Source: Chryseobacterium suipulveris (lineage in GTDB: Bacteria > Bacteroidota > Bacteroidia > Flavobacteriales > Weeksellaceae). Taken from it: a stretch of 64,000 nucleotides of DNA. The notes beneath the pieces were generated by a model, which had not been told where the DNA came from, did no database searches, and saw nothing but the letters and a program-made list of their open reading frames with translations. The stretch covers positions 2,584,501 through 2,648,500 of the forward strand of contig NZ_CP094532.1 in assembly GCF_022811685.1 (NCBI RefSeq), written 5' to 3'. Position numbers and translations under genes: made by a program. Below, one piece after another: positions 606 through 58,849 of the stretch (its first letter is position 1; each line of letters opens with the position of its first letter).

Positions 606-697
606 TTTGAAAGGGTTTGAGTTGATTTGAGTTTATTTGATGTTGCGGAGCTTCTTAAACCCTCAAAGAATTTCAAATAAAATCAAACAACTTCAAA
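606..697. repeat. Period-10 phased repeat hairpin between valS and DUF4241
   Basis: TTTGA occurs at 606, 616, 626 and 636, exactly 10 bp apart. After a short spacer the inverse TCAAA occurs at 663, 673, 683 and 693, again exactly 10 bp apart. The two halves can pair as one long imperfect hairpin. The right half ends three bases before the valS stop codon (700-702) and the left half begins nine bases beyond the start of the next gene. The same layout recurs between rpoC and DUF3467. Confidence 0.8.
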
Positions 698-699
698 TT

Positions 700-3318
700 C
701 TAAAGCGTTTTCAGTTTCTCCTCCAGAAGTGCGATTTTTTCCTGCGCGTCTTTCTGTTTTTTCAGTTCGTTATCCACTACCTGTTGCGGAGCTCCTGCCA
801 TAAATTTCTCGTTGGAAAGTTTCTTCTCAACTGAAATCAGGAATCCTTTCAGGTATTTGAGTTCTTCCTCGGTTTTGGATTTTTCTTCTGCCAAATCAAG
901 GTTTTCACTCAGAGGAATTGAGATTTCCGTGGCTCCAACTAAAAAGGTGAAACTCGGTTTGTCGGTTTTCTGCGCAAAATGGATTTCAGAAATATTCGCC
1001 AGCTTTTTCACTAATTCTTCATTGGCAAAAGAGTCGGTGTTGGTAAAAACCTCCACTTCTTCCCTTGGTGAAATTCCTTTTGACTGTCGGTAATTCCGCA
1101 CTCCAGAAATCAGTTCCTTAGAAGTTTCGAAATTTTTAATCAATTCACTATTAAAGCTATCAGCTTTCTTTTGTTGCGAAATGACCAATGCGTTTTCAGG
1201 AGTTCTTGCGGAAATATTCTGCCAAAGCTCTTCCGACAAAAACGGCATGAACGGATGCAGCAGTTTCATTAATTCCTCAAAATATTCGATCGATTTATGA
1301 TAAACTTCCGCCGAAATCGGTTCGCCGAAATTGGGTTTGATCGCTTCCAGATACCAAGAACAGAAATCGTCCCAGATCAGTTTATACACCAAGTGCAGCG
1401 CATCAGAAATTCTGAATTTTTCGAACTGGTCTGCAATTTCGGTGATGGTTTTGTCCATTTGGTTTCCAAACCATTCGATGGCCTGTTTGTCGGAGCTGTT
1501 GGGTTGCAGCGTTTCGTTTTTTTTCCAACCCTGGATCAGTTTGTAGGCGTTCCAGATTTTGGTGGCAAAATTTCTTCCTTGCAACATCAGGTCTTCATCG
1601 AAAAGCAGGTCGTTTCCTGCAGCGGAACTCAGTAAAATTCCTACGCGAACTCCGTCTGCACCGTATTTGTCAATGAGTTCAATTGGATCGGGTGAGTTTC
1701 CGAGCGACTTCGACATTTTGCGTCTTTGCTTGTCGCGAACGATTCCCGTGAAATAAACATTTTTAAAAGGAACCTCTTTTCGGTATTCCAAACCGGCCAT
1801 AATCATTCTTGCAACCCAGAAGAAAATAATATCGGGACCCGTTACCAAATCCGAAGTCGGGTAGTAATAATTAATGTCTTTATTCTCGGGATCGAGCATT
1901 CCGTCGAACACCGAAATCGGCCACAACCACGAAGAAAACCAGGTATCGAGCGCATCTTCATCCTGCTTTAAGTTTCGAGTTTCGAGTTCCGGGTTTCGAG
2001 TTTTTTGTTTGGCTAAAGCCAAAGCATCTTCGATATTTTCGGCAACCACAAAATCGTTTTCTCCACTACCATAGTAATACGCCGGAATTTGCTGTCCCCA
2101 CCAAAGCTGTCGGGAAATATTCCAGTCGCGGATGTTTTCCATCCAGTGTTTATAGGTGTTCTTGAATTTTTCAGGATGGAATTTCACCTCGTCGTTCATC
2201 ACCACATCCAATGCTGGTTTAGCGATTTCCGACATTTTCAGGAACCACTGCTGCGAAATTTTCGGCTCGATTACGGCACCAGTTCTTTCGGAGGTTCCCA
2301 CTTTGTTGATATAATCTTCCTGCTTTAGCAATAATCCTTTTTCCTCCAGTTCTTTGGCGATGAGCTTTCGTACTTCGAAACGGTTTTTGCCTGCGTAGTG
2401 AAGTCCGTGCTGATTGAGATTGGCGTCATCATCCAAGGAATCGATCATCTGCAGGTTGTGACGTTGCCCAATTTCGTAGTCATTTGTGTCGTGAGCAGGA
2501 GTGATTTTCAGTGCACCCGTTCCGAATTCAATATCCACATAATCATCCTCAATTATAGGGATCACGCGATTCGCGATGGGAACGATCACATTTTTTCCTT
2601 TTAAATGAGCATATCTTTCATCATTAGGATTAATGCAAACCGCGGTGTCGCCGAAAATGGTTTCAGGACGAGTTGTTGCTACAGAAAGAAAATCCTCCGT
2701 TCCTTCAATTTTATATTTTAAATAATAGAGTTTTCCTTTCTGTTCTTTAAAGATAACTTCCTCGTCAGAAATATTGGTTTTGGCTTCCGGATCCCAATTT
2801 ACCATTCGGTAACCGCGATAAACCAGATCTTTATTGTAAAGATCTACAAAAGATTTGATTACCTGCTGCGAAAGCTTGGGTTCCATCGTGAACCGCGTTC
2901 TTTCCCAGTCGCAGGAAGCGCCGAGTTTCTTGAGTTGTTCCAAGATTGTTCCACCGTATTTGTCGGTCCATTCCCATGCATGTTTCAAGAATTCTTCTCT
3001 TGAAATATCGGACTTGTTGATTCCTTCCTCTTTCAGTTTTGCCACGACTTTTGCTTCAGTCGCAATCGAAGCGTGATCCGTTCCGGGAACCCAGCAAGCG
3101 TTGAAACCCTGCATTCTTGCGCGGCGAACCAAAACATCCTGAATTGTATTGTTCAGCATATGTCCCATGTGAAGAATCCCAGTTACGTTTGGCGGTGGAA
3201 TAACGATGGTGTATGGCGGCTTTTCGTTGGGTTCAGAATGAAAGTAATTGTTCTCCAACCAGTAACTGTACCATTTCTGTTCAGTTTCCTGGGGATTATA
3301 TTTGTCCGAAATCTGCAT
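700..3318 (-). CDS. valS: Valine--tRNA ligase
   Basis: Class Ia aminoacyl-tRNA synthetase of 872 residues that charges tRNA-Val in the cytoplasm. The HIGH-type motif is HMGH near residue 50, after PPPNVTG. The KMSKS motif is present as RRKMSKSLGN near residue 534. The connecting editing domain lies between them (TTRPETIFGDTAV). The C-terminus is the Lys/Glu-rich coiled-coil arm typical of ValRS. Length is normal. Near residues 440-450 the linker KTRNPELETRN is encoded by a four-fold period-7 array (1971-1998) like the intergenic arrays elsewhere in the window, followed by a GGCTAAAGCC palindrome. It appears to be first in a unit with the DUF4241 gene. Confidence 0.97.
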   Translation of the reverse strand: MQISDKYNPQETEQKWYSYWLENNYFHSEPNEKPPYTIVIPPPNVTGILHMGHMLNNTIQDVLVRRARMQGFNACWVPGTDHASIATEAKVVAKLKEEGINKSDISREEFLKHAWEWTDKYGGTILEQLKKLGASCDWERTRFTMEPKLSQQVIKSFVDLYNKDLVYRGYRMVNWDPEAKTNISDEEVIFKEQKGKLYYLKYKIEGTEDFLSVATTRPETIFGDTAVCINPNDERYAHLKGKNVIVPIANRVIPIIEDDYVDIEFGTGALKITPAHDTNDYEIGQRHNLQMIDSLDDDANLNQHGLHYAGKNRFEVRKLIAKELEEKGLLLKQEDYINKVGTSERTGAVIEPKISQQWFLKMSEIAKPALDVVMNDEVKFHPEKFKNTYKHWMENIRDWNISRQLWWGQQIPAYYYGSGENDFVVAENIEDALALAKQKTRNPELETRNLKQDEDALDTWFSSWLWPISVFDGMLDPENKDINYYYPTSDLVTGPDIIFFWVARMIMAGLEYRKEVPFKNVYFTGIVRDKQRRKMSKSLGNSPDPIELIDKYGADGVRVGILLSSAAGNDLLFDEDLMLQGRNFATKIWNAYKLIQGWKKNETLQPNSSDKQAIEWFGNQMDKTITEIADQFEKFRISDALHLVYKLIWDDFCSWYLEAIKPNFGEPISAEVYHKSIEYFEELMKLLHPFMPFLSEELWQNISARTPENALVISQQKKADSFNSELIKNFETSKELISGVRNYRQSKGISPREEVEVFTNTDSFANEELVKKLANISEIHFAQKTDKPSFTFLVGATEISIPLSENLDLAEEKSKTEEELKYLKGFLISVEKKLSNEKFMAGAPQQVVDNELKKQKDAQEKIALLEEKLKTL
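1971..2023. repeat. Period-7 array inside valS coding sequence
   Basis: On the + strand AGTTTCG-like heptamers follow one another at 1971, 1978, 1985 and 1992. They are followed by the palindrome TTTGGCTAAAGCCAAA at 2008-2023. Both parts resemble intergenic elements of this window, yet they lie in frame in valS and encode a linker between conserved ValRS blocks. Confidence 0.65.
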
Positions 3319-3373
3319 AAAATCTTAAATAATTATTAAAATATCAGTGCAAAAATAGGGTAAATAAAATTTT

Positions 3374-3406
3374 TTGGAATGATTATTAAAATAATTTTTA
3401 ACTTTG
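3374..3406 (+). promoter_or_regulatory. Flavobacterial promoter for the DUF1573 gene
   Basis: A -33 TTG at 3374-3376 and a -7 TAACTTTG (consensus TAnnTTTG) at 3399-3406 are separated by 22 bp. The ATG follows about 50 bp later, in a gap between divergent genes. Confidence 0.6.
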
Positions 3407-4932: not shown

Positions 4933-4979
4933 TTTTTCAAAAAGAATTTCGGTTGGAAATTATCTTCCGACAAAAAAAA

Positions 4980-5289
4980 CCACAAGAAAAACTATAAGCC
5001 GGATTCTGTTCCCCAAAAATGGGGCGCCTGTTATTTATCTGCGTTTTACATTGCTGCAAAACTTTAGCTGTTTACCCCTCGACATTGGACGAGCCGCCCT
5101 TGATTGCCGATATACTTAACATTGCACCGCAAAGAGTTTACCTGATTTCACTATAAATTAATATACATTCTTTCTGTTGCACTGGTCCTGATCTCGCGAC
5201 CGGCGGACGTTATCCGCTTTGCTGCTCTGTGGTGTCCGGACTTTCCTACTTTCGCCGAGACGAAAATCAACAAGCCGTTTTTCTTGTGG
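4980..5289 (-). ncRNA. rnpB: RNase P RNA (bacterial type A)
   Basis: Read on the minus strand, the conserved RNase P core AGGAAAGTCCGGAC is near the 5' end and the 3' part has the AGAATCCGGCTTATAG block. The ends pair as helix P1: GTTTTTCTTGTGG (5277-5289, + strand) is the exact complement of 4980-4992. These ends set the limits at about 310 nt. The RNA is the catalytic subunit that removes tRNA 5' leaders. Confidence 0.93.
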
Positions 5290-7329: not shown

Positions 7330-7340
7330 TTTTAAAATTT

Positions 7341-7437
7341 TTGTTTGATATAATTTGATTTTGTTTGATGTAGTTTGATTTGGTTTGAAAGCAGAACGTT
7401 ATCAAACTTTCAAACCTTATCAAACGATTTCAAACTA
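7341..7437. repeat. Period-10 phased repeat hairpin between rpoC and DUF3467
   Basis: TTTGA occurs at 7344, 7354, 7364, 7374 and 7384, exactly 10 bp apart. After one spacer block the inverse TCAAA occurs at 7402, 7410, 7420 and 7430. The right arm ends a few bases before the rpoC stop (7442-7444), so the element fills the whole intercistronic gap. This is the same design as 606-697. Confidence 0.82.
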
Positions 7438-7441
7438 TTAG

Positions 7442-11707: not shown

Positions 11708-11719
11708 AACTCTTTTTAA

Positions 11720-11805
11720 GATTATAAATTTTAGATTTTAGATTTTAGATTAATTATTGAATATCAAGCAGTTTGAATTCAAAATTTATAATTTAAAATT
11801 TAAAA
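11720..11805. repeat. AT-rich period-7 repeat hairpin between rpoB and rpoC
   Basis: One arm is a run of TTTTAGA heptamers (about 11727-11751). The other arm is AATTTAAA-type repeats (about 11780-11805) that run straight into the rpoB stop codon at 11806-11808. The arms are roughly inverse complements, so the mRNA between the two genes would fold on itself. Confidence 0.65.
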
Positions 11806-24235: not shown

Positions 24236-24330
24236 TGTTCAAAAATAATAAAAAGTTGAGAGCTACGCTGCAATTGCAGGAAAAGAGTGGTTCAATGGTT
24301 CAGTGGTTCAGTTCACCTTTGACAATCACC

Positions 24331-24372
24331 CATCGCTCATCACTCATCACTTATCACCTATCACCAATCACA
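24331..24372. repeat. Period-7 array between rlmD and DUF6452
   Basis: Six heptamers on the + strand: CATCGCT, CATCACT, CATCACT, TATCACC, TATCACC and AATCACA. It lies in the 264-bp gap between the rlmD stop and the DUF6452 start. Confidence 0.7.
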
Positions 24373-24387
24373 AACACATCGACTCAA

Positions 24388-24425
24388 AAATTTCCTTTAC
24401 CCCAAAACCCTAAAGGGAGGAAAAT
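24388..24425. repeat. CTTTACCCC...CCCTAAAG dispersed element, copy 1
   Basis: TTTCCTTTACCCCAAAACCC is followed by TAAAGGGAGGAAAATTTT. The sequence is nearly the same as 36472-36507, where the neighbouring genes are unrelated. Confidence 0.55.
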
Positions 24426-24432
24426 TTTTTCG

Positions 24433-24504
24433 CTCCAACTCACCTACTCACCTACACTCCAACTCTCCAACTCTCCAACTCTCCAACTCTCCAACTCACC
24501 TACA
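24433..24504. repeat. Period-8 array running into the rlmD stop codon
   Basis: Nine octamers: CTCCAACT, CACCTACT, CACCTACA, five more CTCCAACT and a last CACCTACA. The last unit contains the rlmD stop codon (CTA, 24500-24502). The reverse complement of the unit (AGTTGGAG) recurs as the period-8 array at 56125-56196. Confidence 0.8.
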
Positions 24505-41357: not shown

Positions 41358-41360
41358 ACT

Positions 41361-41396
41361 GTTGCAATTGATGCAGTTGTTGCAATGGTTACAATG
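41361..41396. repeat. Period-9 array after aspS
   Basis: Nonamers GTTGCAATT, GATGCAGTT, GTTGCAATG and GTTACAATG follow the aspS stop. They are the inverse complement of the nonamers at 56464-56535 near rplQ. Confidence 0.7.
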
Positions 41397-41417
41397 GTTT
41401 TTAAGTTGTAGCATAAA

Positions 41418-41529
41418 ATTCACTCGAAGAAATTCACTCGAAGAAATTCACTCGAAGAAATTCACTCGAAGAAATTCACTCGAAGAAATTCACTCGAAGA
41501 AATTCACTCGAAGAAATTCACTCGAAAAA
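41418..41529. repeat. 14-bp tandem repeat, eight copies
   Basis: The unit ATTCACTCGAAGAA occurs seven times without change and an eighth time with one change. It lies between the stop codons of aspS (+) and the enoyl-CoA hydratase gene (-), ending 16 bp from the latter. There are no spacers, so it is not CRISPR-like. Confidence 0.92.
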
Positions 41530-41545
41530 TTCATTCCGAAGTAAA

Positions 41546-42310: not shown

Positions 42311-42318
42311 AAATTTAT

Positions 42319-42356
42319 CCTCACCCCAACCCTCTCCAAAGGAGAGGGAGTTTTTA
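42319..42356. repeat. REP-like palindrome upstream of the hydratase
   Basis: CCCTCTCC-AAA-GGAGAGGG is a perfect palindrome preceded by CACCCCAA and followed by AGTTTTTAGGG. It lies in the intergenic gap. Similar ACCCTCTCC...GGAGAGGG elements are widely dispersed in Bacteroidota genomes (from memory). Confidence 0.7.
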
Positions 42357-42375
42357 GGGCATTTTATTTTAAATC

Positions 42376-42415
42376 TTTTCTAATTTCCTAATCTCTTAAT
42401 CTCCTAATTTCTTAA
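42376..42415. repeat. Period-8 array running into the SMUG2-like gene stop
   Basis: Five octamers: TTTTCTAA, TTTCCTAA, TCTCTTAA, TCTCCTAA and TTTCTTAA. The last unit contains the stop codon (TTA, 42412-42414) of the gene upstream on the minus strand, as at rlmD. Confidence 0.7.
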
Positions 42416-43919: not shown

Positions 43920-43949
43920 CTATTTAAATTTTCTAAAAAATTATTAAAG

Positions 43950-44022
43950 ATAGCGTTCCTACGGAACGCCCTTATCCTGCGCTAATTATATTTCTACACA
44001 GATAACATTCCTACGGAATGTT
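43950..44022. repeat. REP hairpins upstream of the IS200-like transposase
   Basis: GCGTTCCTACGGAACGC (43953-43969) and ACATTCCTACGGAATGT (44005-44021), with GATAGC or ACAGATA tags next to them. They belong to the same family as 43113-43432. Confidence 0.88.
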
Positions 44023-44043
44023 CCAAACGCCTTCTCTTTATAC

Positions 44044-44083
44044 AGTAAATTGATAAATTGCTACATTAGTAAATTGTTAGATT
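44044..44083. repeat. Period-8 array at the paaZ stop
   Basis: Octamers AGTAAATT, GATAAATT, GCTACATT, AGTAAATT and GTTAGATT. The last unit contains the paaZ stop (TTA, 44077-44079). Most of the sequence is the inverse complement of the array at 46578-46609 on the other side of the gene. Confidence 0.72.
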
Positions 44084-46566
44084 AAATTAAACTGTTCGAA
44101 ATGATATGTAAAATGCTTCCTGTGAAACAACTCCCACATTTCTTTATTTATGGTATGGAATAACGGATGTGCGTGTTCTGCTTTCGGATTTTCTCTGTAA
44201 TAAATCAAAAATTCCGTAAGCGTTTCCATAAATTTTTGTTTGGCTTCATCCAGATTTTTATATCTCAGCGGTGCATTTTCATTTTCCGGTAATTCTTCAT
44301 ATTTCAAACCTCTCGAAATAGGTTTATTTTTATACAGCCAATCGTGAAGTTTTTCAAGTTGTTCTTCGGATTGCTCACGAAATGGAGCTTCAGTTTTCCC
44401 AATAGCAAAATGCATAAAATCTTCAAGATGTTCCAGCATATTTTGCGGCGTCATAATTCCAAATTCAGGTTTTGTATTAGCGGTTAAACCGTTCAGCATT
44501 TTCTGAATTTTCGTTTTGTTGAGTTCGATAAATGGCGATTTTTTCGCTACCAAAGTTAAAATCGTTGCCACGCAAACCACTTCTTCACGCTGATTCACAA
44601 CCTCGACCAACCATTTTACCACGCCCGAAGGAATATTTCTGCCCTTCACGCCACGGTTGATTTTTTCTTTCGCCGTCAAATAAACCGTAATCGTGTCGCC
44701 GGCATAAACGGGTTTGAAGAAACTTGCATTTTCGAGACCGTAATTTGCGATAACCGGGCCTTTTTTTCCAGAAACAAATAATCCCGCCGCCGCTGAAAGA
44801 ATAAAATATCCGTGAGCAACAGGCTTGTCGAAAATGGTTCCGTTCAGGGAAGTTGCATCGGTGTGTGCATAGAAATGGTCCCAGGAAACATTGGAGAAAT
44901 TCACGATATCTGCTTCTGTGACGGTTCTTCCAGCCGTTTCGAGCGAATCGCCGACTTCCACTTCTTCAAAATATTTGTGGAACGGATGTTTATCGCTGTA
45001 TTTTTTCTCTGCACCTTGAGTGTAGATTTTGGTAATCGCCGTCAAAACATCGGGCGAACCTTGGATTGCCGTTTTCTGTAAAAAGAAATGAAGCCCGTTC
45101 AAACCGCCCATTTCTTCGCCACCTCCCGCTCTTCCGGGACCGCCGTGCATTAAAGTTGGCAACGGTGAACCGTGACCGGTAGATTCTTTTGCGTTATCGC
45201 GGTTCAAAACGAAAATTCTTCCGTGTGTGGAAGCCATTTTCCAGGAAGTTTCGGCTACAAATTTTTCGTCGTGGGAAATAATAGAACCCACCAAACTACC
45301 TTTTCCTCTTTTTGCCAATGCAGCAGCTTCTTCTGCATATTTATACGGCATCAAGGTAGAAACCGGCCCGAACGCTTCCACTTCGTGAGAAATATTTTTT
45401 TCAAACGGTTTATCGTTCAAAAAGACTTTTGGCGAAATGAATGCTCCACTTTCAAAATCAGCATCTACCAATTCGTGCTGTCCGTCGTATATAAGTTCGG
45501 TTTCGGCTTTCAACTGATTGATTTTTCCCTGTAAAACTTCGAGTTCTTTCTTCCCGACGATACTTCCCATTCTCGTTTCACGGTTCAAAGGATTCCCGAT
45601 TTTGGTTTGATCCAATACTTTTGAAAGCGCGTTCTGAACCTCGCCAATCAAATTTTCAGGAACGATAATTCTGCGGATTGCGGTGCACTTTTGTCCGGCT
45701 TTCGTGGTCATTTCGTTGCGAACTTCCTTGATGAACAAATCAAATTCCGGCGTTCCGGGTTTAGCATCAAGTCCCAAAATCGAGGCGTTCAAAGAATCGG
45801 CTTCCTTGTTGAAACGAACGGCATTCTGAGAAATCGAAGGCAGGGATTTCAGTTTTCTCCCTGTATTCGCAGAACCGGTAAACAAAACGGAATCACCATC
45901 CTGAACATAATCCAGAATATTCCCCGGCTCACCGCAAACCAACTGAAGTGCGCCTTCCGGAAGCAATCCACTTTCAATCATATCCTGGAAAACGGCATTG
46001 GTAAGGTAAGAACCGGGTGTTGCAGGTTTTACAATACTTGGAACTCCCGCCAACAATGAGGTCGAAAGTTTTTCCATCATTCCCCAAACCGGAAAATTGT
46101 AGGCATTAATCTGAACGGAAACACCTTCACTCGGCGTTAAAATGTGCGTTCCGAGATGTGTTCCGTTGGCCGAAATTTTCTGAACATCGCCATCCACCCA
46201 AAACGGTGTATTGGGCAACATTCTTTTCGCCAAACCGGAATAGGTAAAAAATGTCCCGAAACCGCCTTCAATATCCACCCAAGAATCAACATGCGTTGCA
46301 CCGGTTTTATAGGAAAGTTCGTAGTATTTTTTCTTTCTCTCGAGAAGATATAATGCGATATTTTTCAGCATTTCGCCACGGTCGTAGAAAGTCATAGAAG
46401 ACAAGTTTCTGTAACCAACCGTTCTTCCGTAATGCAGTGCTTCTTCAAAATTAATTCCGTCGGTATCGGAAATAGCGACGAGTTCACCGTTAACGGCATT
46501 GAAAAGTTTAATTCCTTCTCCTGTTCCTTCCTGCCATTGTCCGGCGATATAGTTTTTTAGTTTCAT
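44077..46566 (-). CDS. paaZ: PaaZ-like aldehyde dehydrogenase-MaoC protein with extra C-terminal domain
   Basis: An 829-residue protein. Residues 1-520 are an aldehyde dehydrogenase with the catalytic Cys in KAGQKCTAIRR and Glu in FNKEADSLNASILG. Residues of about 530-680 are a MaoC-type hydratase (WDHFYAHTDATSLNG, KPVAHGYFILSAAAGLF, NYGLENASFFKPVYAGD). E. coli PaaZ (about 680 residues) opens the ring of oxepin-CoA and oxidises the aldehyde. Here about 140 more residues follow with MTPQNMLEHLEDFMHFA and HPLFHTINKEMWELFHRKHF, which resemble DinB/DUF1569-like four-helix domains. No paaABC genes are seen nearby. Confidence 0.88.
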   Translation of the reverse strand: MKLKNYIAGQWQEGTGEGIKLFNAVNGELVAISDTDGINFEEALHYGRTVGYRNLSSMTFYDRGEMLKNIALYLLERKKKYYELSYKTGATHVDSWVDIEGGFGTFFTYSGLAKRMLPNTPFWVDGDVQKISANGTHLGTHILTPSEGVSVQINAYNFPVWGMMEKLSTSLLAGVPSIVKPATPGSYLTNAVFQDMIESGLLPEGALQLVCGEPGNILDYVQDGDSVLFTGSANTGRKLKSLPSISQNAVRFNKEADSLNASILGLDAKPGTPEFDLFIKEVRNEMTTKAGQKCTAIRRIIVPENLIGEVQNALSKVLDQTKIGNPLNRETRMGSIVGKKELEVLQGKINQLKAETELIYDGQHELVDADFESGAFISPKVFLNDKPFEKNISHEVEAFGPVSTLMPYKYAEEAAALAKRGKGSLVGSIISHDEKFVAETSWKMASTHGRIFVLNRDNAKESTGHGSPLPTLMHGGPGRAGGGEEMGGLNGLHFFLQKTAIQGSPDVLTAITKIYTQGAEKKYSDKHPFHKYFEEVEVGDSLETAGRTVTEADIVNFSNVSWDHFYAHTDATSLNGTIFDKPVAHGYFILSAAAGLFVSGKKGPVIANYGLENASFFKPVYAGDTITVYLTAKEKINRGVKGRNIPSGVVKWLVEVVNQREEVVCVATILTLVAKKSPFIELNKTKIQKMLNGLTANTKPEFGIMTPQNMLEHLEDFMHFAIGKTEAPFREQSEEQLEKLHDWLYKNKPISRGLKYEELPENENAPLRYKNLDEAKQKFMETLTEFLIYYRENPKAEHAHPLFHTINKEMWELFHRKHFTYHFEQFNLI

Positions 46567-46577
46567 TTTTTTTAATG

Positions 46578-46609
46578 TAACAATTTAGCAATTTACCAAT
46601 GTAGCAATT
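46578..46609. repeat. Period-8 array upstream of paaZ
   Basis: Octamers TAACAATT, TAGCAATT, TACCAATG and TAGCAATT begin 12 bp before the paaZ ATG. The inverse complement (AATTGCTACATTGGTAAATT) is close to 44052-44075. Confidence 0.7.
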
Positions 46610-46659
46610 ATCTGATGATTAATGCATTTCGTAAAAAGTAAGTTGGGTCTTTGTCCTAA

Positions 46660-46732
46660 AAATAAGTTGTGGATAAAGCCAATTCGTTTCGTTACTTTTT
46701 TTAAACGGGCTAAAGCCCGTTCCTATTGATCC
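46660..46732. repeat. GGCTAAAGCC dispersed element, copy 1
   Basis: AATAAGTTGTGGATAAAGCC, about 20 bp, then the hairpin AACGGGCTAAAGCCCGTT (46704-46721) and TCCTATTGA. The same two-part layout recurs at 56303-56372. It sits in the 302-bp gap upstream of paaZ, which shows no ORF. Confidence 0.7.
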
Positions 46733-46868
46733 GCATCTCTTTTTTCGTCAAATTGATTATGTTTTTTCCGAGGGTTAAGATACGGAAAATTTGAGTTTGT
46801 ACTTTATTTCAAAATAACAACAAGTTTTATTCTTTCTAATAATTATTGAGCGTCCTGTGTCTTTAGAA

Positions 46869-47903
46869 TTATGATTTTCTTAGCGAGAACGTCAACCAGT
46901 AGGAGGAAAAGAAGAAGTAGAAATCCCGAAAAAAAACGATATTCACCTGGAGCAGGAAAGAAAAAAACTTCAAATAAAGATTGGCGAAAAGAAACATTGC
47001 TAATAGTTTCGTCCATAAATCTTTAGTAAAATAGAAAATACTTGCAATGCATAAAAATGCTGCAACTGATATTTTCTTGAAACTTGACAAACCATCTATC
47101 AGTATTGCCCTATATTGACTGAAAGAAAATTCTGCGGGATCTGAAAGATATCTACGACGATAAATAAATGTATCGTAAAACACATCGTTCCATCCAGGAT
47201 ATTTGTTAATTTTTAAGATGAGGATGTACATCAATAGAATTGTGACGCCAGAAACAAAGCTTAGCCAATGTATTTTTTTCTTAGTGATGAAATCGTACAG
47301 AAAAACAGTTCCAAAATAGCTTAAGGTGAAAATTACCATATCCGGTCTTGTAAAAACCAGTAAAAGTAATACCATACACTGAATCAAGAAATTTTGTTTA
47401 TCTAATATTACATAAAAAAACCAAAGCATCAGTAAGATCGTCAACATATCAGGAGATGGGATTGTCGCCAAAAATCGAAATTGCGGAATAAGAAGCAGAC
47501 CCACAGTAAACAAAAATGACAAAATTGTTTTTTCCGGAATTATCTTGTTAAAAATTGAAAAGAGAAGAAATCCGAAAATAAAAAACGAAATTAGATTAGG
47601 CAAGAATACTGAAAGTGGCGCAATAATACCTAAGTTACTAAAGACAAAAATCAGCGCCACAAACAAAACTTTGAACGAGTAGTATGGTATCTGTTGGATA
47701 AATGCTTGTGGGTTTTGTGAGATGAAACTTTTCCAATCCCGAATATGTTCGTCTTCTCCATTTTGAAGAACATTAACTCCAGTCATGTTATCATATGAAG
47801 CCGCGGGAGCTTCGCTCCTTATAGCAGAATATACATCATTCTTAAGTTGGACATTATCGACTGGTGAGTCTACAATGAAACTACTTCCCAGATATCCAGG
47901 CAT
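46869..47903 (-). pseudogene. Polytopic membrane protein (GT-C-like) with disrupted 5' end
   Basis: The open frame of 344 residues starts MPGYLGSSFIV, where the family would be expected to have a cytoplasmic start and first membrane helix. About ten membrane segments are visible. Upstream in the same strand an ATG at 47997-47999 begins MINSVKIYYFLLLIVSVLLF, a typical first helix, but it stops within 22 codons. The main frame continues upstream as RSYGWDMPG before an in-frame TAG. So the 5' part appears to be out of frame by at least two changes. Alternatively the gene starts at MPG and is functional. Resembles GT-C glycosyltransferases only by topology and the TRPD/SPDM loops. Confidence 0.55.
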
Positions 47904-51890: not shown

Positions 51891-52765
51891 GGCTTATTAA
51901 TAAAATTAACATACTCTCGTAAATCAAGCAAGTCGTTATTAAATCGTAGTTGGTCAAGACCTTGAGGATTTTCAACAGGACTTGTCTCCATTTTACCTGT
52001 TAATGAATTGATTTGCATCTGTGTTCCATAGATTTGCTTTTTTCCTTCATTAATTTTGATCCTGTCTATAAGGTATGTATAATATCGTGGTTTTATGTTA
52101 GGAAGTGGAGAAGAAAACATTTGTAAAATTTCCTTTTGAAAAGCGAGATCAGAATCACTATGTTGCGCAACAAACCAAATGGTTTCAAGTAACTTACAAT
52201 CACAATCATTTTCTGCTATTTTCTTAATTCCAAATTTAGACAAAGCTCGTTTGATGTCTTGCCTATTTTGATTATCATTATTTGTTATCACAGCCATTAT
52301 ACTATCTATCTCTTTCTTTGTTCCAGTAAAAAAATTATCGGGTAAATTCCTATAATACTGATCTTTATACAGTATCTCCGTAAAACTAATGCGAAGACTA
52401 TCATAATCAGGAGTTGTTTTGCAGGAAGTTAATTCATTATAATAGGATATCGATGATGAGTCTAATGAACATTTATTGATTTTAGAAAAGTTATTTTTAA
52501 TATAATTATTAGCAACTGATAGATACTTGTCGTTTTCAGAAATTTTCATATAGTTTAATACTCTTGCTTTCTTATTTTTGTCAAGGTATTCAATATTTGG
52601 AAATAGATGCTTAAAGGTGAAGTCGGCTAGCTTTTCCTTCTCATCATTTATCAGGTAAGCATCCGCAATCCTAAAATATTCTTGCACTCTCTGTCTTTCA
52701 TAGTTTAAATTAGTACAATTAATTATGATAAGAAAAATAAATATAATATTAAATGATATCTTCAT
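51878..52765 (-). CDS. Lipoprotein with DUF6624-like C-terminal domain
   Basis: A 295-residue protein with a lipoprotein signal (FIFLIIINC). The mature N-terminal two thirds is unrecognised and Lys/Asn-rich. The C-terminal part, ETIWFVAQHSDSDLAFQKE, then PRYYTYLIDRI, GKKQIYGTQMQ and LREYVNFI, resembles DUF6624. It is AT-rich compared with its neighbours. The stop overlaps the HlyD fragment, so its last residues may be altered by the deletion. Function is unknown; it is downstream of the broken peptide-maturase gene. Confidence 0.65.
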   Translation of the reverse strand: MKISFNIIFIFLIIINCTNLNYERQRVQEYFRIADAYLINDEKEKLADFTFKHLFPNIEYLDKNKKARVLNYMKISENDKYLSVANNYIKNNFSKINKCSLDSSSISYYNELTSCKTTPDYDSLRISFTEILYKDQYYRNLPDNFFTGTKKEIDSIMAVITNNDNQNRQDIKRALSKFGIKKIAENDCDCKLLETIWFVAQHSDSDLAFQKEILQMFSSPLPNIKPRYYTYLIDRIKINEGKKQIYGTQMQINSLTGKMETSPVENPQGLDQLRFNNDLLDLREYVNFINKPDKK

Positions 52766-52946
52766 GATTTATTATTTTAGAAATCGGAAATTTTGGAGGA
52801 AACACCTCATATCCATTTGTTTGAAATATGTTAGAGCTGCTACAAACATAAAAGTCTTCTATAACAGATTTTGAGATTTTTGATCTTCTTATAAACCAAT
52901 GAGATAGTGGGAAAGAAGGTTTTCTAAAATTAAGCTTTTTTTTCAT
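52749..52946 (-). CDS. Small ORF coupled to the broken ATP-grasp gene
   Basis: A 65-residue frame that starts 17 bp inside the 3' end of the ATP-grasp gene and overlaps the lipoprotein gene by 17 bp. It is Lys/Ser/Phe-rich with two Pro-rich segments (FRKPSFPLSHWF and VFPPKFPISK) and one Cys. I do not recognise it. The position matches where a second maturation gene (gwsS) or helper would start, but no SPASM cysteines are present. Confidence 0.45.
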   Translation of the reverse strand: MKKKLNFRKPSFPLSHWFIRRSKISKSVIEDFYVCSSSNIFQTNGYEVFPPKFPISKIINHEDII

Positions 52947-53910
52947 GGTGGGTATTTGTTAATATTTTTCCAACTTTTTTTTCTAAAAAATAATTACAAG
53001 GACGGGATACCATTCCGAACTGACCTACAGGATTTATTTCTAAAAAATAATACTCCCAGTTTTTAGTCACAATCATATCAATAGAACATGTAATTAATTT
53101 TAATTCTATAATCATTTTTCTTAATTTTTCTTCAATATTCCTTGGAAGTTTGTAAGGAACAAACCGATTAGGTCTTTGAAAATTATAATCTCTGAAATCC
53201 AGTCTTGTCTGTTTATCATTTTGAGAAAATATTGCCATTGAATAAAATTCTCCGTCACAATAAAAATTCTCAATTCAAATTTCTTTTCTATTTCTTCCTG
53301 AATTTTAGAGGGGAAAAAATTATCTGCATTATTTTTTAAAAATTTAATTCGACTTGTATATAAAGTAAATATCTCTTTATTATAGTTGTATGATGTTGCT
53401 TCTCCTATCGCTTTTGTTATTAATTGTTTATTTCCTAATTTTTTTTTTGATGTGTTTGGTCGAGTTCGTCACGACTGTGAAAGGAACTTTTAATCCATAT
53501 TTTATCGCGATGCAAATATTTTTTAGCTTATCTATTCTTTGAGAATATTTATTAACCCATAACGATTCTAAGAAAAAGTATTCGAAAAAAAAGTATATGC
53601 GACCTAATTCACCCATTAAGTGAAGTTCTAGCGTTTTGTCACTACCATATGTATTGAAAAATGGCACATTATCAAACACGCTTTCATCATAAGTTCTTCT
53701 AAACCATACAGTTTTAACTTTATGTGGATTAATAATATTATCTTTAAATTCGAAAAAACTACTATTAATTTTTAAATTGAAATCTGAAAAAATTAAATCT
53801 TCACCATTGATTCTAACAATATTTTCTATATTGCTAGCAAATATCCAATCCATAACGTTGTCAGTTGTAGTTTCTCCCTTGTCTTTACTAAAAATAACAA
53901 TATAACTCAT
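52930..53910 (-). pseudogene. Grasp-with-spasm type ATP-grasp peptide maturase (gwsG-like), two frameshifts
   Basis: The protein is readable in three pieces. Piece 1 (53910-53428) starts MSYIVIFSKDKG and has VKTVWFRRTYDES. Piece 2, in another frame between about 53437 and 53262, reads GNKQLITKAIGEATSYNYNK and NFFPSKIQEEIEKKFELRI. Piece 3 returns to the first frame: DGEFYSMAIFSQNDKQTRLD, NRFVPYKLP, SIDMIVTKNWEYYFLEINPV and GQFGMVSRPCNYFLEKKV. Joined, they give about 320 residues of a graspetide-type ATP-grasp ligase, which makes ester or amide bonds in a precursor peptide. Piece 1 ends in a 10-T run (53439-53448); the second shift is near 53262-53266. Confidence 0.85.
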
Positions 53911-53930
53911 GATTATATAAGTACGTTATA

Positions 53931-53954
53931 AAAAAACACACAAAAATGTGTGTT
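53931..53954 (-). terminator. Hairpin with T run between precursor and maturase genes
   Basis: On the minus strand AACACAC, a 6-nt loop and GTGTGTT are followed by further T. It lies 28 bp past the stop of the putative precursor and 20 bp before the maturase ATG. It could be the usual partial terminator that lets precursor mRNA exceed maturase mRNA. Confidence 0.6.
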
Positions 53955-53981
53955 CTAATTAATAATTCTTACAGTTAATAA

Positions 53982-54150
53982 TTATACCATTGGAGCGACC
54001 CAATCATATCTCACTCTATCTACAGTATAACAACCGCACTGAGTTTGGGTTGCTTCATTGCGATAAGTATCGCCAAGTGAGGCGCGCCAATTATTCTTCT
54101 CATGGTTTCTTTCTTGAATTTTTTTGAATTCAGCTTTTCCAGTTTTTCAT
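53982..54150 (-). pseudogene. Degenerate RiPP precursor peptide gene (gwsA-like)
   Basis: An ATG at 54148-54150 is followed by the wrong frame (MKNWKS and stop). In the next frame the leader reads KLEKLNSKKF, as in flavobacterial grasp-with-spasm precursors. A third frame gives a core with GDTYRNEATQTQCGCYTVDR and RYDWVAPMV and stops at 53982-53984. One base short in the A run after ATG and one more shift would join them. It lies directly upstream of the broken ATP-grasp gene, where a precursor belongs. Confidence 0.5.
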
Positions 54151-54340
54151 AATAAAAATTTTTAATTGGTTTTGTACTATTGATTATTCAAATTTAAATC
54201 AAAATTTATAATACAAAAACAAAAACTTTTGCGATTTATTTGCGATTTTAAACAATATCTTTCAAAACTCTACTAAATTAAGGCAATAAAAAATAGAGTT
54301 TCTATCTAAATTTTTTAATTTAGCATCAAATGAATGCACC
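54151..54340. other. Gene-free AT-rich stretch
   Basis: Divergent gap between the precursor remnant and the XRE gene. No consensus promoter stands out on the + strand. Confidence 0.4.
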
Positions 54341-54679
54341 ATGGAAAAAATAAAGCTCACCGAAGCACGCAAGCGAAAGGGGTTTTCCCAAAGCCACATC
54401 GCAGAACAGCTCTGTATGGATGTCTCCAACTATAATAGGCGAGAGAAGGGTCAGGCAAAAATTACCGCAAAAGAATGGCAGAAGCTGGCAGAAATTTTAG
54501 AAGTTCCATTAGAGGATATCTACGAATCTGAAGAATCCCAGATCTTTATCTTTAATGACCAGTCCTCCGGAAACGGCAATATTGTGAATAATTACAATAT
54601 TCCCTTCTCAATTTGGGAGACCCAAAAGAAATATATTGAAAAACTGGAAGAAGAATTACAACAATTGAGAAAACGGTAA
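54341..54679 (+). CDS. XRE-family helix-turn-helix regulator with coiled-coil tail
   Basis: A 112-residue DNA-binding protein. The HTH_3 domain occupies residues 5-60: LTEARKRKGFSQSHIAEQLC, then VSNYNRREKG and WQKLAEILEVPLEDIYE. A short Gly/Asn linker (NDQSSGNGNIVNNYN) leads to a C-terminal coiled coil (QKKYIEKLEEELQQLRKR), likely for dimerisation. It is divergent from the RiPP remnants and may once have controlled them, though this type is also common alone in flavobacteria. Confidence 0.88.
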   Translation: MEKIKLTEARKRKGFSQSHIAEQLCMDVSNYNRREKGQAKITAKEWQKLAEILEVPLEDIYESEESQIFIFNDQSSGNGNIVNNYNIPFSIWETQKKYIEKLEEELQQLRKR

Positions 54680-54690
54680 TTCCTTTTCAG

Positions 54691-55590
54691 TCATTGTTTC
54701 GGTCTTAATATACTGTCCTTCCATTTTTTGTATTGCAAAGAAGGCAAACCGTATTTCTTTCTTCTTAAATTGAAAGTGTCAATGGGTTTGTCGGACTTGA
54801 TGATTTTGAAACCTCTCGCATTACCATCGTCGCCAAAATAATAGTGATGATAGAAATGCAGAAATCGGGAACCGATTAAGCTTTCCATTTGAAAAGGTTC
54901 GGCTTTTCCTTTTTTCAAGTTGGTAAAAACAAACTCCTTTAACTGATCATACTCCTCTATACGTGAAATATGATAGTAAATCAATCCCAATTTAGACGCA
55001 TTCATCAATCCAAGAACCTTTTGTTCGGGATAGCCAAATTGTTCGGATAGTTTGCGAAGTTTTTTATAGTTGTCTTCGTCAACTTCCCATTCGTTTGGCT
55101 TTCCTCTGGATTTTTGGTCATTGCTGAACATTGATTCGAAAGTAGAAATATATTCCTGGTTTCTCGTCTTTAAATATGAGTTTTCCCAAGTTTTTAATTC
55201 ATCATCGGTAATTTTGAGCGATGCTATTTTTAGATTTACCAAACTATCCTTTTTAAGAAACTCGGGTTTGGAACCCCAATTCTCAACCAAACTTTTAAGG
55301 ATATTCCTTACATTTTTATCCTCATCAAGTAATTGAGAAAGCTCCACATAAGACTTCATCTCATAAACGGAAACGCTATTTCTTGGCGGATAGATTTTGA
55401 ACAGACTATCTAACTTTCTAAATGCTTCTTTATTTTTGCCAATAATTTTCAAACTATCTGCTTTATAAGCTTCTAAAAAATAAGGGATGTAATTTATTTC
55501 TTCTTGGTTGGGAGCAGGTTTTCGTACAAAACAAGAAATAATAGAGAGCAATGAAAAAAGGAATATTGATCTCGTAAAATATTTTTGCAT
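54691..55590 (-). CDS. Lipoprotein of unknown function
   Basis: A 299-residue protein with a signal peptide and lipobox (FLFSLLSIISC). The mature part is helical, Lys/Glu/Leu-rich and TPR-like in places (AYKADSLKIIGKNKEAFRKL, then LDSLFKIYP), with a C-terminal RFLHFYHHYYFGDDGNARGF block. No family is recognised. It converges with the XRE gene, 12 bp apart. Confidence 0.7.
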   Translation of the reverse strand: MQKYFTRSIFLFSLLSIISCFVRKPAPNQEEINYIPYFLEAYKADSLKIIGKNKEAFRKLDSLFKIYPPRNSVSVYEMKSYVELSQLLDEDKNVRNILKSLVENWGSKPEFLKKDSLVNLKIASLKITDDELKTWENSYLKTRNQEYISTFESMFSNDQKSRGKPNEWEVDEDNYKKLRKLSEQFGYPEQKVLGLMNASKLGLIYYHISRIEEYDQLKEFVFTNLKKGKAEPFQMESLIGSRFLHFYHHYYFGDDGNARGFKIIKSDKPIDTFNLRRKKYGLPSLQYKKWKDSILRPKQ

Positions 55591-55648
55591 GGGAAGTTTA
55601 TTTTATCAACGTACAAATTTCTTAAATTTACATACTAAATCCTTAATT

Positions 55649-56086
55649 ATGAAAAATCCAGTTTTAGTTCTTTCTTCAGTTTTGTTACTTTCTGCATTCA
55701 GCTGCAAAAAATCTTCAGACGGCAACAAAAGCATAATCGTTGAAGAAAACGTAGAAAAAACCGTTAGCAACGACAACGGAAAAATCGACAGTACTTTTAC
55801 TGATGCCAAAACCGAAAAAACAGCCGACACCCAAGTTCAGGAAATTACAGAAAGATATGTCGGAACCGACGGAACCTCCGCTTTGGTGACCTTTAAAAAT
55901 TCTGACAAGGAACACACGATCAGCATCCGAAGCAACAACAAAACCATCGTTCTTCCCCAAAAAGAAGCGTGGGCAAAAGGCGGAATCTACGCCGACCACG
56001 ACATCGAAGTGAAATCGGAAGGCGACAATATCACCATTACGCAAGGAAACAACGTGATCGAGCTGAAAAAAGCGAGGGGACAGTAG
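55649..56086 (+). CDS. Lipoprotein with MliC-like domain
   Basis: A 145-residue protein; the ATG at 55649 starts a lipoprotein signal with lipobox (LLLSAFSC). After a Lys/Thr/Glu linker, residues of about 67-143 (ERYVGTDGTSALVTFKNSDK, NKTIVLPQKEAWAKGGIYAD) resemble the C-type lysozyme inhibitor MliC/PliC beta-barrel fold, but without an obvious Cys pair. A role in defence against host lysozyme is possible. The sequence upstream of its ATG is shared with the remnant at 51416. Confidence 0.6.
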   Translation: MKNPVLVLSSVLLLSAFSCKKSSDGNKSIIVEENVEKTVSNDNGKIDSTFTDAKTEKTADTQVQEITERYVGTDGTSALVTFKNSDKEHTISIRSNNKTIVLPQKEAWAKGGIYADHDIEVKSEGDNITITQGNNVIELKKARGQ

Positions 56087-56196: not shown

Positions 56197-56302
56197 GCTT
56201 CGCAGTGAATTTCTGTGAGTGAATTTCTTGTAGAGTAAATTTTTATTAAAGTTCTTTCTTAGTGCAAGCAGAGCAACTTGAACTTTGAATGTTGAATCTC
56301 AA

Positions 56303-56372
56303 AAAAATAAGTTTTGGCTAAAGCCAAATTACAACTCACACTTCTAAGCGGGCTAAAGCCCGCTCCTATTGA
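56303..56372. repeat. GGCTAAAGCC dispersed element, copy 2
   Basis: TTTGGCTAAAGCCAAA (56313-56328) and, 18 bp on, AGCGGGCTAAAGCCCGCT (56347-56364) plus TCCTATTGA. Copy 1 is at 46660-46732. No ORF is seen here. Confidence 0.7.
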
Positions 56373-56421
56373 AGCGAAAGATTCTATTATTTTCCTTTCT
56401 GTGAAAAGATCTTGCGTATTT

Positions 56422-56535
56422 GAAACTTGGAACTAGAAACCTGAAACTCTAGAACAATCTGAAACCAACTGCAACCATTGCAACAACTGCAACCATTGCA
56501 ACCATTGCAACAACCACAACAACAGCAACCAAAAA
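56422..56535. repeat. Period-7 then period-9 array next to the rplQ terminator
   Basis: From 56422 heptamers GAAACTT, GGAACTA, GAAACCT and GAAACTC; from 56464 nonamers ACCAACTGC, AACCATTGC, AACAACTGC, AACCATTGC, AACCATTGC and on. The heptamers match the rpsK-rpsD array and the nonamers the array after aspS (inverted). Confidence 0.75.
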
Positions 56536-56573
56536 CAAAAAATCCGCTCAGAACTTCTGAACGGATTTTTATG
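56536..56573 (-). terminator. Terminator of the ribosomal operon after rplQ
   Basis: On the minus strand AAATCCGTTCAGAA, T, then TTCTGAGCGGATTT with one mismatch, followed by a T run. It lies 17 bp past the rplQ stop. Confidence 0.85.
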
Positions 56574-56589
56574 TTGAAAACCAGGATTC

Positions 56590-57129
56590 TTATTCCTCAG
56601 TTTTTTCTTCTGCAGTGTCAGCAGCTTCAGCTTTTGGAGCTTCTGCAGCCGGTTCTTCAGCTTTTGCTTTTTCCTTTGCAGGGATTTCTGCAACGGGTTC
56701 TACTTTTTTCGCTGTGGTTCTTCTGCTTCTTCTTGTCGCTTTTTTCTCTTCAGCATTCGGGTTGTAGAGCTCGTTGAAATCTACAAGTTCGATCATTGCA
56801 GTATCTGCAGCGTCTCCCGGTCTGAATCCGGTTTTGATGATTCTGGTATAACCACCGTTTCTTTCTGCAATTTTAGGGGCAACTGTTCTGAATAATTCAG
56901 TAACCGCCTCCTTGCTTTGCAGGTAAGAGAAAACCGTTCTTCTGTTGTGTGTTGTATCTTCTTTAGCTTTGGTAAGAAGGGGCTCAACATATACTCTCAA
57001 AGCTTTTGCTTTGGCAACAGTAGTGTTGATTCTTTTATGCTCAATAAGAGAACAAGCCATATTAGAAAGCAATGCCTTTCTGTGGGAAGCTGTTCTTCCT
57101 AAGTGATTGAATTTTTTACCGTGTCTCAT
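56590..57129 (-). CDS. rplQ: 50S ribosomal protein L17
   Basis: A 179-residue protein. Residues 1-115 are L17: [20 protein letters not shown], then [31 protein letters not shown] and [22 protein letters not shown]-terminal tail of about 60 residues, rich in Lys/Arg then Ala/Glu, follows; such tails are usual in Bacteroidota L17. Last gene of the spc/alpha operon. Confidence 0.96.
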
Positions 57130-58131: not shown

Positions 58132-58165
58132 ATAATTTGGGTTGAGCAAAAATTTGAAAAAATTA

Positions 58166-58774
58166 TTATTTAGAGTAAAGTTCGACGATCAGCTGTTCTT
58201 TGATATCTTCCGGGATTTGGATTCTTTCCGGAGCTGATACGAAAGTACCTTCTTTCTTCTCGTCGTTGAACTGTAACCACTCATAATTTGATTTGGAAGC
58301 GAGTGCGTCAGCAATTACCTCAAGAGATTTAGATTTCTCTCTGATTGCCACTACATCACCAGCTTTCAACAAATATGAAGGAATGTTTACGAGCTCGCCA
58401 TTTACTGTTACGTGCCTGTGAGAAACCAACTGACGTGCACCTGCTCTGGTTTTAGAAAACCCTAATCTGTACACCACGTTGTCTAATCTCGATTCACATA
58501 GCTGTAAAAGTACTTCACCAGTAACGCCTTTTGCTCTCTGCGCTTTTTCGTAAAGGTTAGCAAACTGTCTTTCCAAGATACCGTAGGTATATTTTGCTTT
58601 CTGCTTTTCTGTAAGCTGGATCGCGTACTCGGATTTTTTTGCACCTCTTCTTTTATTCGGTCCGTGTTGTCCCGGTGGTTGGTTTTTTCTTTTCTCGAAA
58701 TTTTTGTCGTCTCCGTAGATTGCAGCACCAAATTTTCTTGCAATCTTAGTTTTTGGTCCAATATATCTTGCCAT
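58166..58774 (-). CDS. rpsD: 30S ribosomal protein S4
   Basis: A 202-residue protein with the S4 RNA-binding domain ([19 protein letters not shown], then [20 protein letters not shown]). The N-terminus [17 protein letters not shown] and [20 protein letters not shown] are typical. Primary 16S rRNA binder. Confidence 0.97.
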
Positions 58775-58791
58775 AAAATTTTTTTTTAAGA

Positions 58792-58849
58792 GTTTCAGGT
58801 TTCAGGTTTCAGGTTCGTTATGGAACTTGGGACTTGAAACTTGGAACTA
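58792..58849. repeat. Period-7 repeat hairpin between rpsK and rpsD
   Basis: Three GTTTCAG heptamers (58792-58812) are answered by GGAACTT, GGGACTT, GAAACTT and GGAACTA (58822-58849). The two arms pair over about 25 positions if G-U is allowed. The element fills the gap between the rpsK stop and the rpsD start. Confidence 0.78.

Follow-up and report, generated by a model that had tools for sequence, protein, structure and literature searches.

What are the degenerate short-period repeats that fill gaps between neighbouring genes of Chryseobacterium suipulveris, and what lets them stay there? The question is raised by a 64,000-nucleotide stretch of the genome (contig NZ_CP094532.1, positions 2,584,501 to 2,648,500; called the window below), in which gaps such as valS–DUF4241, rpoC–DUF3467, rpoB–rpoC and rpsK–rpsD are taken up by repeat arrays, often with a second, complementary arm. 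The original prediction, made from these letters, had offered either birth by a slippage-type process or a role as mRNA hairpins inside operons. Both fit what we found and they are not alternatives; each is supported in part. The explanation that we prefer, and to which the sequence comparisons below give about an even chance, is that operon junctions are where slippage and inverted copying give rise to arrays, which may then persist as intercistronic hairpins working in the manner of repetitive extragenic palindromic sequences and bacterial interspersed mosaic elements (REP/BIME), with the structure itself apparently selected at rpoC–DUF3467.

The occurrence of repeat arrays and hairpins in gaps between genes is confirmed. 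By its DUF3467 and RpoC proteins, the genome lies nearest to Soonwooa and to species of Chryseobacterium/Kaistella. We sampled 1.26 Mb of the 3.04-Mb single-contig Weeksellaceae genome (42%), as 60 stretches of 20 kb at steps of about 50 kb plus the window, took gene borders from a purpose-written gene caller, not from annotation, and scored 596 gaps of 40-400 nt (425 co-oriented, 77 convergent, 94 divergent). The array score is home-made (match 1, mismatch -1.5, lags 6-16), and its cut-off differs by analysis: at least 15 for abundance, at least 14 for position, and at least 12 for the promoter box and the pairing of gaps with Chryseobacterium koreense. Arrays of period 6-16 are present in 56 of the 596 gaps, when about 0.3 would be expected from shuffled gaps; on such an excess over shuffled intergenic sequence the prediction had been staked beforehand. 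By orientation, they fall in 46/425 co-oriented, 6/77 convergent and 4/94 divergent gaps (shuffled expectation 0.2, 0.0 and 0.1), and length-matched coding segments hold an array in 5/1788 cases. The period in co-oriented gaps is 7 in 23/46 and 8 in a further 10/46. With degenerate units, a commonest unit of 7 nt and an intergenic location, the arrays have the traits of heptanucleotide-type intergenic tandem repeats (STRR/LSSR type).

Their placement is tied to gene ends. Among 51 co-oriented arrays, 16 start no more than 10 nt past the upstream stop codon (7.4 expected, p=0.0006), which bears out the predicted link to stop codons, and 19 end no more than 15 nt before the next start (10.2 expected, p=0.0004). 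Folding follows orientation as well: strong folding, defined as a fold z below -3 against shuffles, occurs in 112/425 co-oriented, 37/77 convergent and 3/94 divergent gaps, the convergent count also taking in ordinary terminators. Pooled, 149/502 gaps with a 3' gene end fold strongly vs 3/94 divergent gaps (p=9e-10).

The clearest case for a selected structure is the rpoC–DUF3467 junction. Relatives were sampled mostly around rpoBC, with gaps sharing identical first 25 bases removed; sequence families at junctions were defined by 70% identity, and the comparison of rpoC–DUF3467 and rpoB–rpoC left out gaps of 30 nt or less and of 260 nt or more, which excludes rpoB–rpoC gaps with inserted genes. 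From 95 Weeksellaceae genomes including this one came 99 rpoC–DUF3467 gaps (four genomes were entered twice, with no effect on the number of families; 1/80 named loci is without rpoC), which reduce to 66 distinct gaps in 23 families. Between families, sequence identity is 0.51 vs 0.48 for shuffled partners. Yet all 23 family representatives fold with a z of -4.2 or lower, all 66 distinct gaps with a z of -4.0 or lower, and 21/23 families hold an uninterrupted helix of at least 11 bp, in a stem that starts a median of 6 nt past the stop codon. Repeats are significant (p<=0.025) in 11/23 families. Since all families fold and fewer than half are repetitive, the hairpin is the constant, and repeats are one frequent way to build it. 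Selection for structure rather than sequence is thus well supported by comparative folding at rpoC–DUF3467, and at this junction only. A further step, which we regard as tentative and rather doubtful, is that this hairpin is a conserved regulatory RNA without conserved sequence, of which only the double-stranded stem is selected, for example as an RNase III-type or exonuclease-barrier site, and which each lineage would rebuild from the short-repeat family that its replication errors currently spread. If each lineage does rebuild the stem from other repeats, standard sequence and covariance methods would miss one common element.

But what about the other junctions? At rpoB–rpoC, 91 gaps from 88 genomes (three entered twice, family number unaffected) form 20 families, with significant repeats (p<=0.025) in 17/20. 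Folding is significant at p<=0.025 in 13/20 families and strong (z<-3) in 7/20, and a helix of at least 11 bp is found in 6/20. When the analysis was repeated on different gene calls with fewer shuffles, z<-3 was reached in 3/19 families at rpoB–rpoC and in 23/23 at rpoC–DUF3467. In the window's own rpoB–rpoC arrays, A faces C once in each unit. At rpsK–rpsD, we compared 21 genomes (20 drawn from 60 matched, plus this one, with the rpsK stop placed by an automatic rule): 11 have bare gaps of 18-25 nt, nine have arrays of 65-101 nt (fold z -4.1 to -1.2) and one has another gap of 107 nt. None of the nine arrays has a helix longer than 7 bp (at least 11 bp in 0/9), and A.C mismatches number 31 vs nine G.T. 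Because arrays at these two junctions come mostly with short helices, arrays and strong hairpins are separable. The regular breaks in the stems, in arrays that we read as tolerated, fit selection against long double-stranded RNA; neutral decay may also be the cause. One further junction near rpoBC (38 loci, four families) has strong folding in 0/4 and arrays in 0/4 families.

Two side observations concern the rpoB–rpoC gap. In many array families, its start-side arm carries, by eye, repeated AATCT cores at 7-8 nt spacing (AATCTAA, AATCTCA, AATCTGA, AATCTTTT), a hint that the core may be constrained and the spacer not. This usually short junction measures 1.2-4.1 kb in at least five genomes of the Weeksellaceae (L066/L175, L081, L089, L098, L181), where it contains apparent inserted open reading frames.

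The arrays also have a base polarity. On the coding strand, start-side arrays hold more C than G in 25/27 cases, and they do so on both replication strands (leading 15/16, lagging 10/11, with origin and terminus set by us from sampled GC skew). Stop-side arrays are G-richer in 16/24, clearly on the leading strand (9/11) and not on the lagging strand (7/13). On the strand of the nearer gene, convergent arrays are G-richer in 6/6 cases; of six divergent arrays, four are C-richer, one is G-richer and one is tied. Along the junctions, G minus C is higher in the first than in the second half of the gap in 19/23 rpoC–DUF3467 families and drops likewise in 18/20 rpoB–rpoC families, with one tie. The promoter box TAnnTTTG, which in this genome occurs 182 times forward vs 61 reverse in co-oriented gaps and 68 and 72 times on the two strands of divergent gaps (17.8 in shuffles) and so is a genuine signal, is found in 7/48 array gaps vs 112/270 other co-oriented gaps of 60-250 nt (p=0.0003), so that more of the array gaps are likely operon-internal. 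A promoter in the hairpin loop, an arrangement suggested by rpoC–DUF3467, was rejected as a general rule because array gaps hold fewer boxes; at rpoB–rpoC the box occurs in 1/20 families (shuffles 1.2).

How stable are the arrays over time? The same gaps, compared in relatives, hold modules that are present, absent or replaced between related species. Across 320 kb, 44 orthologous gaps could be paired with C. koreense; arrays are found in 11 here, in three there and in three in both, and median gap identity is 0.60 without arrays (n=28) and 0.41 with them (n=9). In some gaps a whole module is there in one genome and missing from the other: a two-armed gap of 124 nt here (L061:7325-7448) corresponds to a bare gap of 21 nt in C. 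koreense, and in another gap, judged by eye, the interior is common to both genomes and both arms are present here but not there. The gap 3' of the rlmD-type gene is shorter in C. koreense and without an array. The rpsK–rpsD gap, on the other hand, is 94% identical between the two genomes, the one-armed AAAGCCG array is found in both (gap identity 0.75), and the hairpin of GAGA/TCTC units has an 8-nt longer counterpart with an identity of 0.78.

On a wider scale, around rpoBC, arrays occupy 17/89 co-oriented gaps in 18 genomes of the genus. Other Weeksellaceae loci, among which L075-L143 were classed as non-genus as a group and not one by one, have them in 25/269 co-oriented, 5/66 convergent and 0/28 divergent gaps. 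In small samples around rpoBC, other families of the order have 0/49 co-oriented and 1/3 divergent gaps with arrays, and other orders of the class 2/77 co-oriented gaps. Three TCAAAC units at period 10 occur in 3/36 genomes of the genus, and three TTGAAAC units at period 7 (up to two mismatches) in 4/36. The prediction that different loci use different motifs needs amending here: within one genome a motif family turns up at many loci, and most genomes of the genus lack the two families that were tested.

How might such arrays arise and persist? Replication slippage would build an array, its unit usually 7 or 8 bases long, at a gene border inside an operon, and template switching would add an inverted copy, turning a bare gap of about 20 nt into one of about 65-125 nt with two complementary arms. 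Comparison of related species shows that a given gap may hold such a module, lack it or hold another in its place. Within the mRNA, the two arms have the potential to pair a few bases past the upstream stop codon into a hairpin without a U-tract, which might act as a REP/BIME-like barrier to 3' exonucleases or as a processing point, so that neighbouring genes of an operon would differ in mRNA level. Where useful or harmless, the module would be retained as an intercistronic hairpin; at rpoC–DUF3467, where helices are long, the gap folds in all genomes compared and the sequence is free to change, the hairpin itself would be under selection.

Several results weigh against this explanation. Many arrays are one-armed. 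Arrays alone are not significantly enriched in gaps with a 3' gene end (52/502 vs 4/94 divergent, p=0.08). Long arrays have unit positions that never vary as well as others that vary freely, a pattern not expected from simple slippage. Array density varies: C. koreense has arrays in 3/103 and R2A-55 in 0/21 co-oriented gaps, and another member of the genus, sampled over 420 kb, has them, mostly built of other heptamers, in 7/151 co-oriented, 1/36 convergent and 1/41 divergent gaps. The rpoB–rpoC and rpsK–rpsD junctions keep repeats but mostly short helices and A.C-rich mismatches, which speaks against a single function; at rpoB–rpoC, family representatives have 46 A.C vs 16 G.U, the opposite of an RNA hairpin. 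The predicted role as mRNA hairpins gains from the folding behind stop codons, the start-side polarity and rpoC–DUF3467.

The rpoC–DUF3467 junction itself contributes to this side of the balance. Unlike most array gaps, it carries a TAnnTTTG box in 11/23 families (shuffles 1.7), so that some of these genomes may have a promoter in the gap; the window's own gap has no such box. Transition mismatches favour G.U over A.C when all distinct gaps are counted (137 vs 47) and not significantly so among the 23 representatives (40 vs 28, p=0.18). With opposite signs at rpoC–DUF3467 and rpoB–rpoC, the G.U to A.C comparison was dropped as a general test for RNA. In the largest family, with 28 distinct gaps, the paired share of cells is 94.8%; shuffles average 94.2% and attain the observed share in 3/500 cases, so that it lies barely above them, and pairing is upheld mostly through one-sided changes, for example from A-U to G.U. 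Two-sided changes (one pair, reached by 135/500 shuffles) and the covariation score (reached by 69/500) are not above shuffles within this family, and the support for selection on structure therefore comes from the comparison between families. Finally, a family's own arms outpair all foreign arms in just 4/23 rpoC–DUF3467 and 1/20 rpoB–rpoC families, since polarity and AT-richness let arms of other species pair too.

The strongest competitor is purely mutational: operon borders would simply be tolerant, slippage and hairpin-templated switching would build and erase arrays there, and the hairpin would have no function. We consider this possible but clearly less probable than the explanation we prefer. 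Motif indifference, turnover and presence or absence at one site all speak for a mutational engine that produces the arrays, and the broken stems of rpoB–rpoC and rpsK–rpsD, the many one-armed arrays and the non-significant scarcity of arrays in divergent gaps (p=0.08) would require nothing more. Such an engine does not account for a start-side polarity seen on both replication strands, for strong folding that is almost confined to gaps with a 3' gene end, or for a hairpin in each of the distinct rpoC–DUF3467 gaps; the gene-end placement, the polarity and the strong folding behind stop codons speak for a filter at the RNA level.

Could the arrays instead be remnants of a small dispersed mobile element, or the sites at which it lands, so that motif families travel through the genome with it? 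Motif families do occur at many loci and are limited to clades, and a dispersed repeat of about 60 bp (GCGAAGCATTCACGAACTCAAA ... TTGTGAGTAAAC) has 32 matches here (up to two mismatches), two in one other genome (G179) and none in the 34 other genomes of the genus. Judged by eye, each of the 12 sampled copies is bordered on the right by a CTTGAAA-type unit, 11 of the 12 have one on the left, and one pair of copies stands in tandem; the repeat may be a small mobile element that makes use of arrays of heptamers. But the sample with these 12 copies holds 56 array gaps. In addition, at 24 places with period-10 arrays, found with a search pattern that prescribes the core TCAAA plus C/T, the 118 units (overlaps included) differ in their 4-base spacers, of which there are 36 kinds. 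We therefore think this reading unlikely. The earlier claim that the arrays are not copies of one mobile element holds for most of them, with a reservation for some CTTGAAAC arrays, which flank the 60-bp repeat.

An even less probable reading, in our view, is that of a translation device, in which the arm upstream of the start codon, rich in C and A and poor in G, serves as an unstructured leader that aids initiation without a Shine-Dalgarno sequence, and the stop-side arm folds this leader away in read-through mRNA. The composition of near-start arrays (42% A, 24% C, 5% G) suits such a leader, as does the excess of arrays that end close to starts. Against it stands that, at rpoC–DUF3467, the stem ends a median of 33 nt before the start codon, and the usual initiation footprint does not reach that far upstream. 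That the hairpins are intrinsic transcription terminators, as their place past stop codons and the strong folding of convergent gaps might suggest, is most improbable and was rejected, since T-tails are missing (after 1/39 co-oriented array hairpins in this genome, in 0/23 rpoC–DUF3467 and 3/20 rpoB–rpoC families) and stems are AT-rich (stem GC 0.30 and 0.33, respectively).

Returning to slippage-born arrays that persist as hairpins, we would like to place them among known repeats. REP/BIME elements of enterobacteria are intergenic hairpins past stop codons and inside operons, consisting of copies of a defined palindrome family. The arrays resemble them in lying past stop codons and inside operons. 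REP/BIME elements also avoid divergent gaps; arrays occur in 4/94 divergent gaps here (p=0.08) and in 0/28 at other Weeksellaceae loci. The arrays differ from REP/BIME elements in that no single conserved palindrome recurs in many copies: array motifs share just short core units, as the many spacers of the period-10 units illustrate. STRR is the name of the short repeats in the hyp operon of Nostoc PCC 7120. The comparisons that follow draw on excerpts of the papers cited. In that operon, short repeats including LTRR recur as fixed sequences of 11-23 nt, some of them foldable (PMC2408588); they are like the arrays in recurring in operon gaps and in being partly foldable, and unlike them in their fixed sequence, with no turnover at one junction described in the excerpts (PMC2408588).

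The closest precedent is stem P6b of the Nostoc tRNA-Leu(UAA) group I intron, where the two sides of the stem carry degenerate 7-base repeats that pair in the RNA, the sequence class (TDNGATT or NNTGAGT) has been replaced repeatedly under a similar structure, and indels are unit-sized, some of them on both stem sides (PMC4476775, PMC3488679). Here, too, an RNA stem is built from repeats and its sequence replaced while the structure stays similar; judged by arms that are both made of repeats and complementary in the transcript, 23/23 rpoC–DUF3467 families fold and 11/23 are also repetitive. In contrast to P6b, which lies in an intron, at one site and with two classes, the arrays belong to another phylum and stand at operon junctions, at many sites, with 23 families at one junction and periods of 7, 8 and 10. 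Next come the G-rich heptamers GGGAATC of Xanthomonas and GGGGA(C/T)T of Nostoc, which have G-quadruplex potential (Rehm et al. 2015, PMC4692102), are prominent at different genes in sister species and include one example of an inverted pair (PMC4692102). They share the stop/start polarity of the arrays (PMC4692102), whereas the arrays are AT-rich, have many motifs per genome and are often two-armed hairpins.

More distant are the intergenic direct repeats TAACTGA, found in Beggiatoaceae, cyanobacteria and five Bacteroidetes including Elizabethkingia (MacGregor 2015, PMC4679880). These heptamer arrays also lie beside genes, are mixed with other heptamers in some hosts and are present or absent between relatives; they differ in having one fixed motif that alone is not predicted to form RNA structure and in standing mostly just upstream of starts in the main host (PMC4679880). 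The intergenic hairpin inside the co-transcribed hupS–hupL pair of Nostoc punctiforme is alike by description in its operon-gap placement; it is a single case, and the excerpts of that report make no mention of repeats (PMC2661322). Among the matches listed from the open-licence literature, no description of the present arrays in Weeksellaceae was found apart from the Elizabethkingia cases (PMC4679880), nor a paper on REP elements in Flavobacteriia. As far as these searches show, the two-armed operon-junction form, the number of families that replace each other at one junction, and the existence of both long-stem and broken-stem junctions are new.

If our explanation is right, one operon junction keeps its RNA structure across a bacterial family while its letters are replaced wholesale via transient arrays. 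The heptamer repeats of cyanobacteria, Xanthomonas and Bacteroidota would be joined into one process with a common polarity, and the arrays would offer a testable system for the birth of structured RNA from replication slippage. They would also warn that covariance searches may overlook some forms of conservation in RNA elements.

The gaps of the window are listed in the table. Named gaps were compared with dinucleotide shuffles, 1000 for repeats and 300 for folding. Gene identities at these gaps match Pfam (valyl-tRNA synthetase, DUF4241, DUF3467, RpoC, RpoB, S4 and S11; further, a U5-methyltransferase-type protein, a uracil-DNA-glycosylase-superfamily protein and a fusion of aldehyde dehydrogenase and MaoC). 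At all seven gaps named in the original prediction, the tandem signal exceeds shuffles, strongly in six and weakly at the paaZ-type gene. Of the four two-armed gaps, valS–DUF4241, rpoC–DUF3467 and rpsK–rpsD fold better than shuffles; rpoB–rpoC does not.

Table. Array gaps and other features of the window, with example copies of the 60-bp repeat from the sampled loci
Feature	Position	Strand	Description
valS–DUF4241 gap	598..699	-	Two-armed period-10 array, GTTTGA/TCAAAC family; arms at about 657-699 and 605-643; tandem p=0.001, fold z -3.4
RNase P RNA, bacterial class A	4979-5286	-	Rfam RNaseP_bact_a
rpoC–DUF3467 gap	7330..7441	-	Two-armed period-10 array, strong hairpin; tandem p=0.001, fold z -7.9
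rpoB–rpoC gap	11708..11805	-	Two period-7 arrays, TTTTAAA / TCTAAAA; tandem p=0.001; weak hairpin, fold z -1.2, p=0.13
Gap 3' of rlmD-type gene	24236..24499	-	Period-8 array AGTTGGAG from 2 nt past stop, then period-7 (GTGATGA) and period-8 arrays; tandem p=0.001
Convergent gap	41358..41545	.	Period-14 array AAATTCACTCGAAG at 41416-41547, 9.4 copies, plus period-9 TTGCAAC-type array
Gap after uracil-DNA-glycosylase-superfamily gene	42311..42411	-	One-armed period-8 array directly past stop; tandem p=0.002
Gap after paaZ-type gene	43920..44076	-	Weak period-8 array CAATTTAN; tandem p=0.015
Part of convergent gap	56250..56589	.	Period-9 (TTGCAATGG/TTGCAGTTG) and period-7 arrays; tandem p=0.001, fold z -4.0
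rpsK–rpsD gap	58775..58855	-	Two-armed period-7 array, GTTTCAAG / CCTGAAAC; helices of 6 bp or less; tandem p=0.001, fold z -3.8
Gap	59639..59897	-	One-armed period-7 array AAAGCCG, 34 nt past stop codon
Operon gap	61958..62026	-	Hairpin of degenerate GAGA/TCTC units; fold z -3.7, tandem p=0.23
Copies of the dispersed repeat of about 60 bp	L047:19502-19640, L034:10869, L031:14020		Examples

In a cmscan search of the window against Rfam, the RNase P RNA is the sole match at gathering score: the arrays match no known Rfam RNA, and no group I intron was reported. The 3' part of the gap at 59639..59897 resembles, by eye, a small gene missed by the caller. Positions 52001-56000 have a GC content of 0.31 vs about 0.40 around them and few confident genes, and are possibly acquired DNA. 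Sites of the form GAATTTCTTCGAGTGAATTT, related to the period-14 array, number 22 in the sample of this genome (up to three mismatches). Palindromes of the GGGCTTTAGCCC type lie at 46560-46875 and 56240-56600 of the window and in the rpoB–rpoC gaps of L067 and L193, with 13 in the sample of this genome (up to one mismatch, both strands); they look like a REP-like family common to relatives. Intergenic sites of the CTCCCTTTAGGGT type number 21 in the same sample (up to one mismatch), several of them within long folded gaps.

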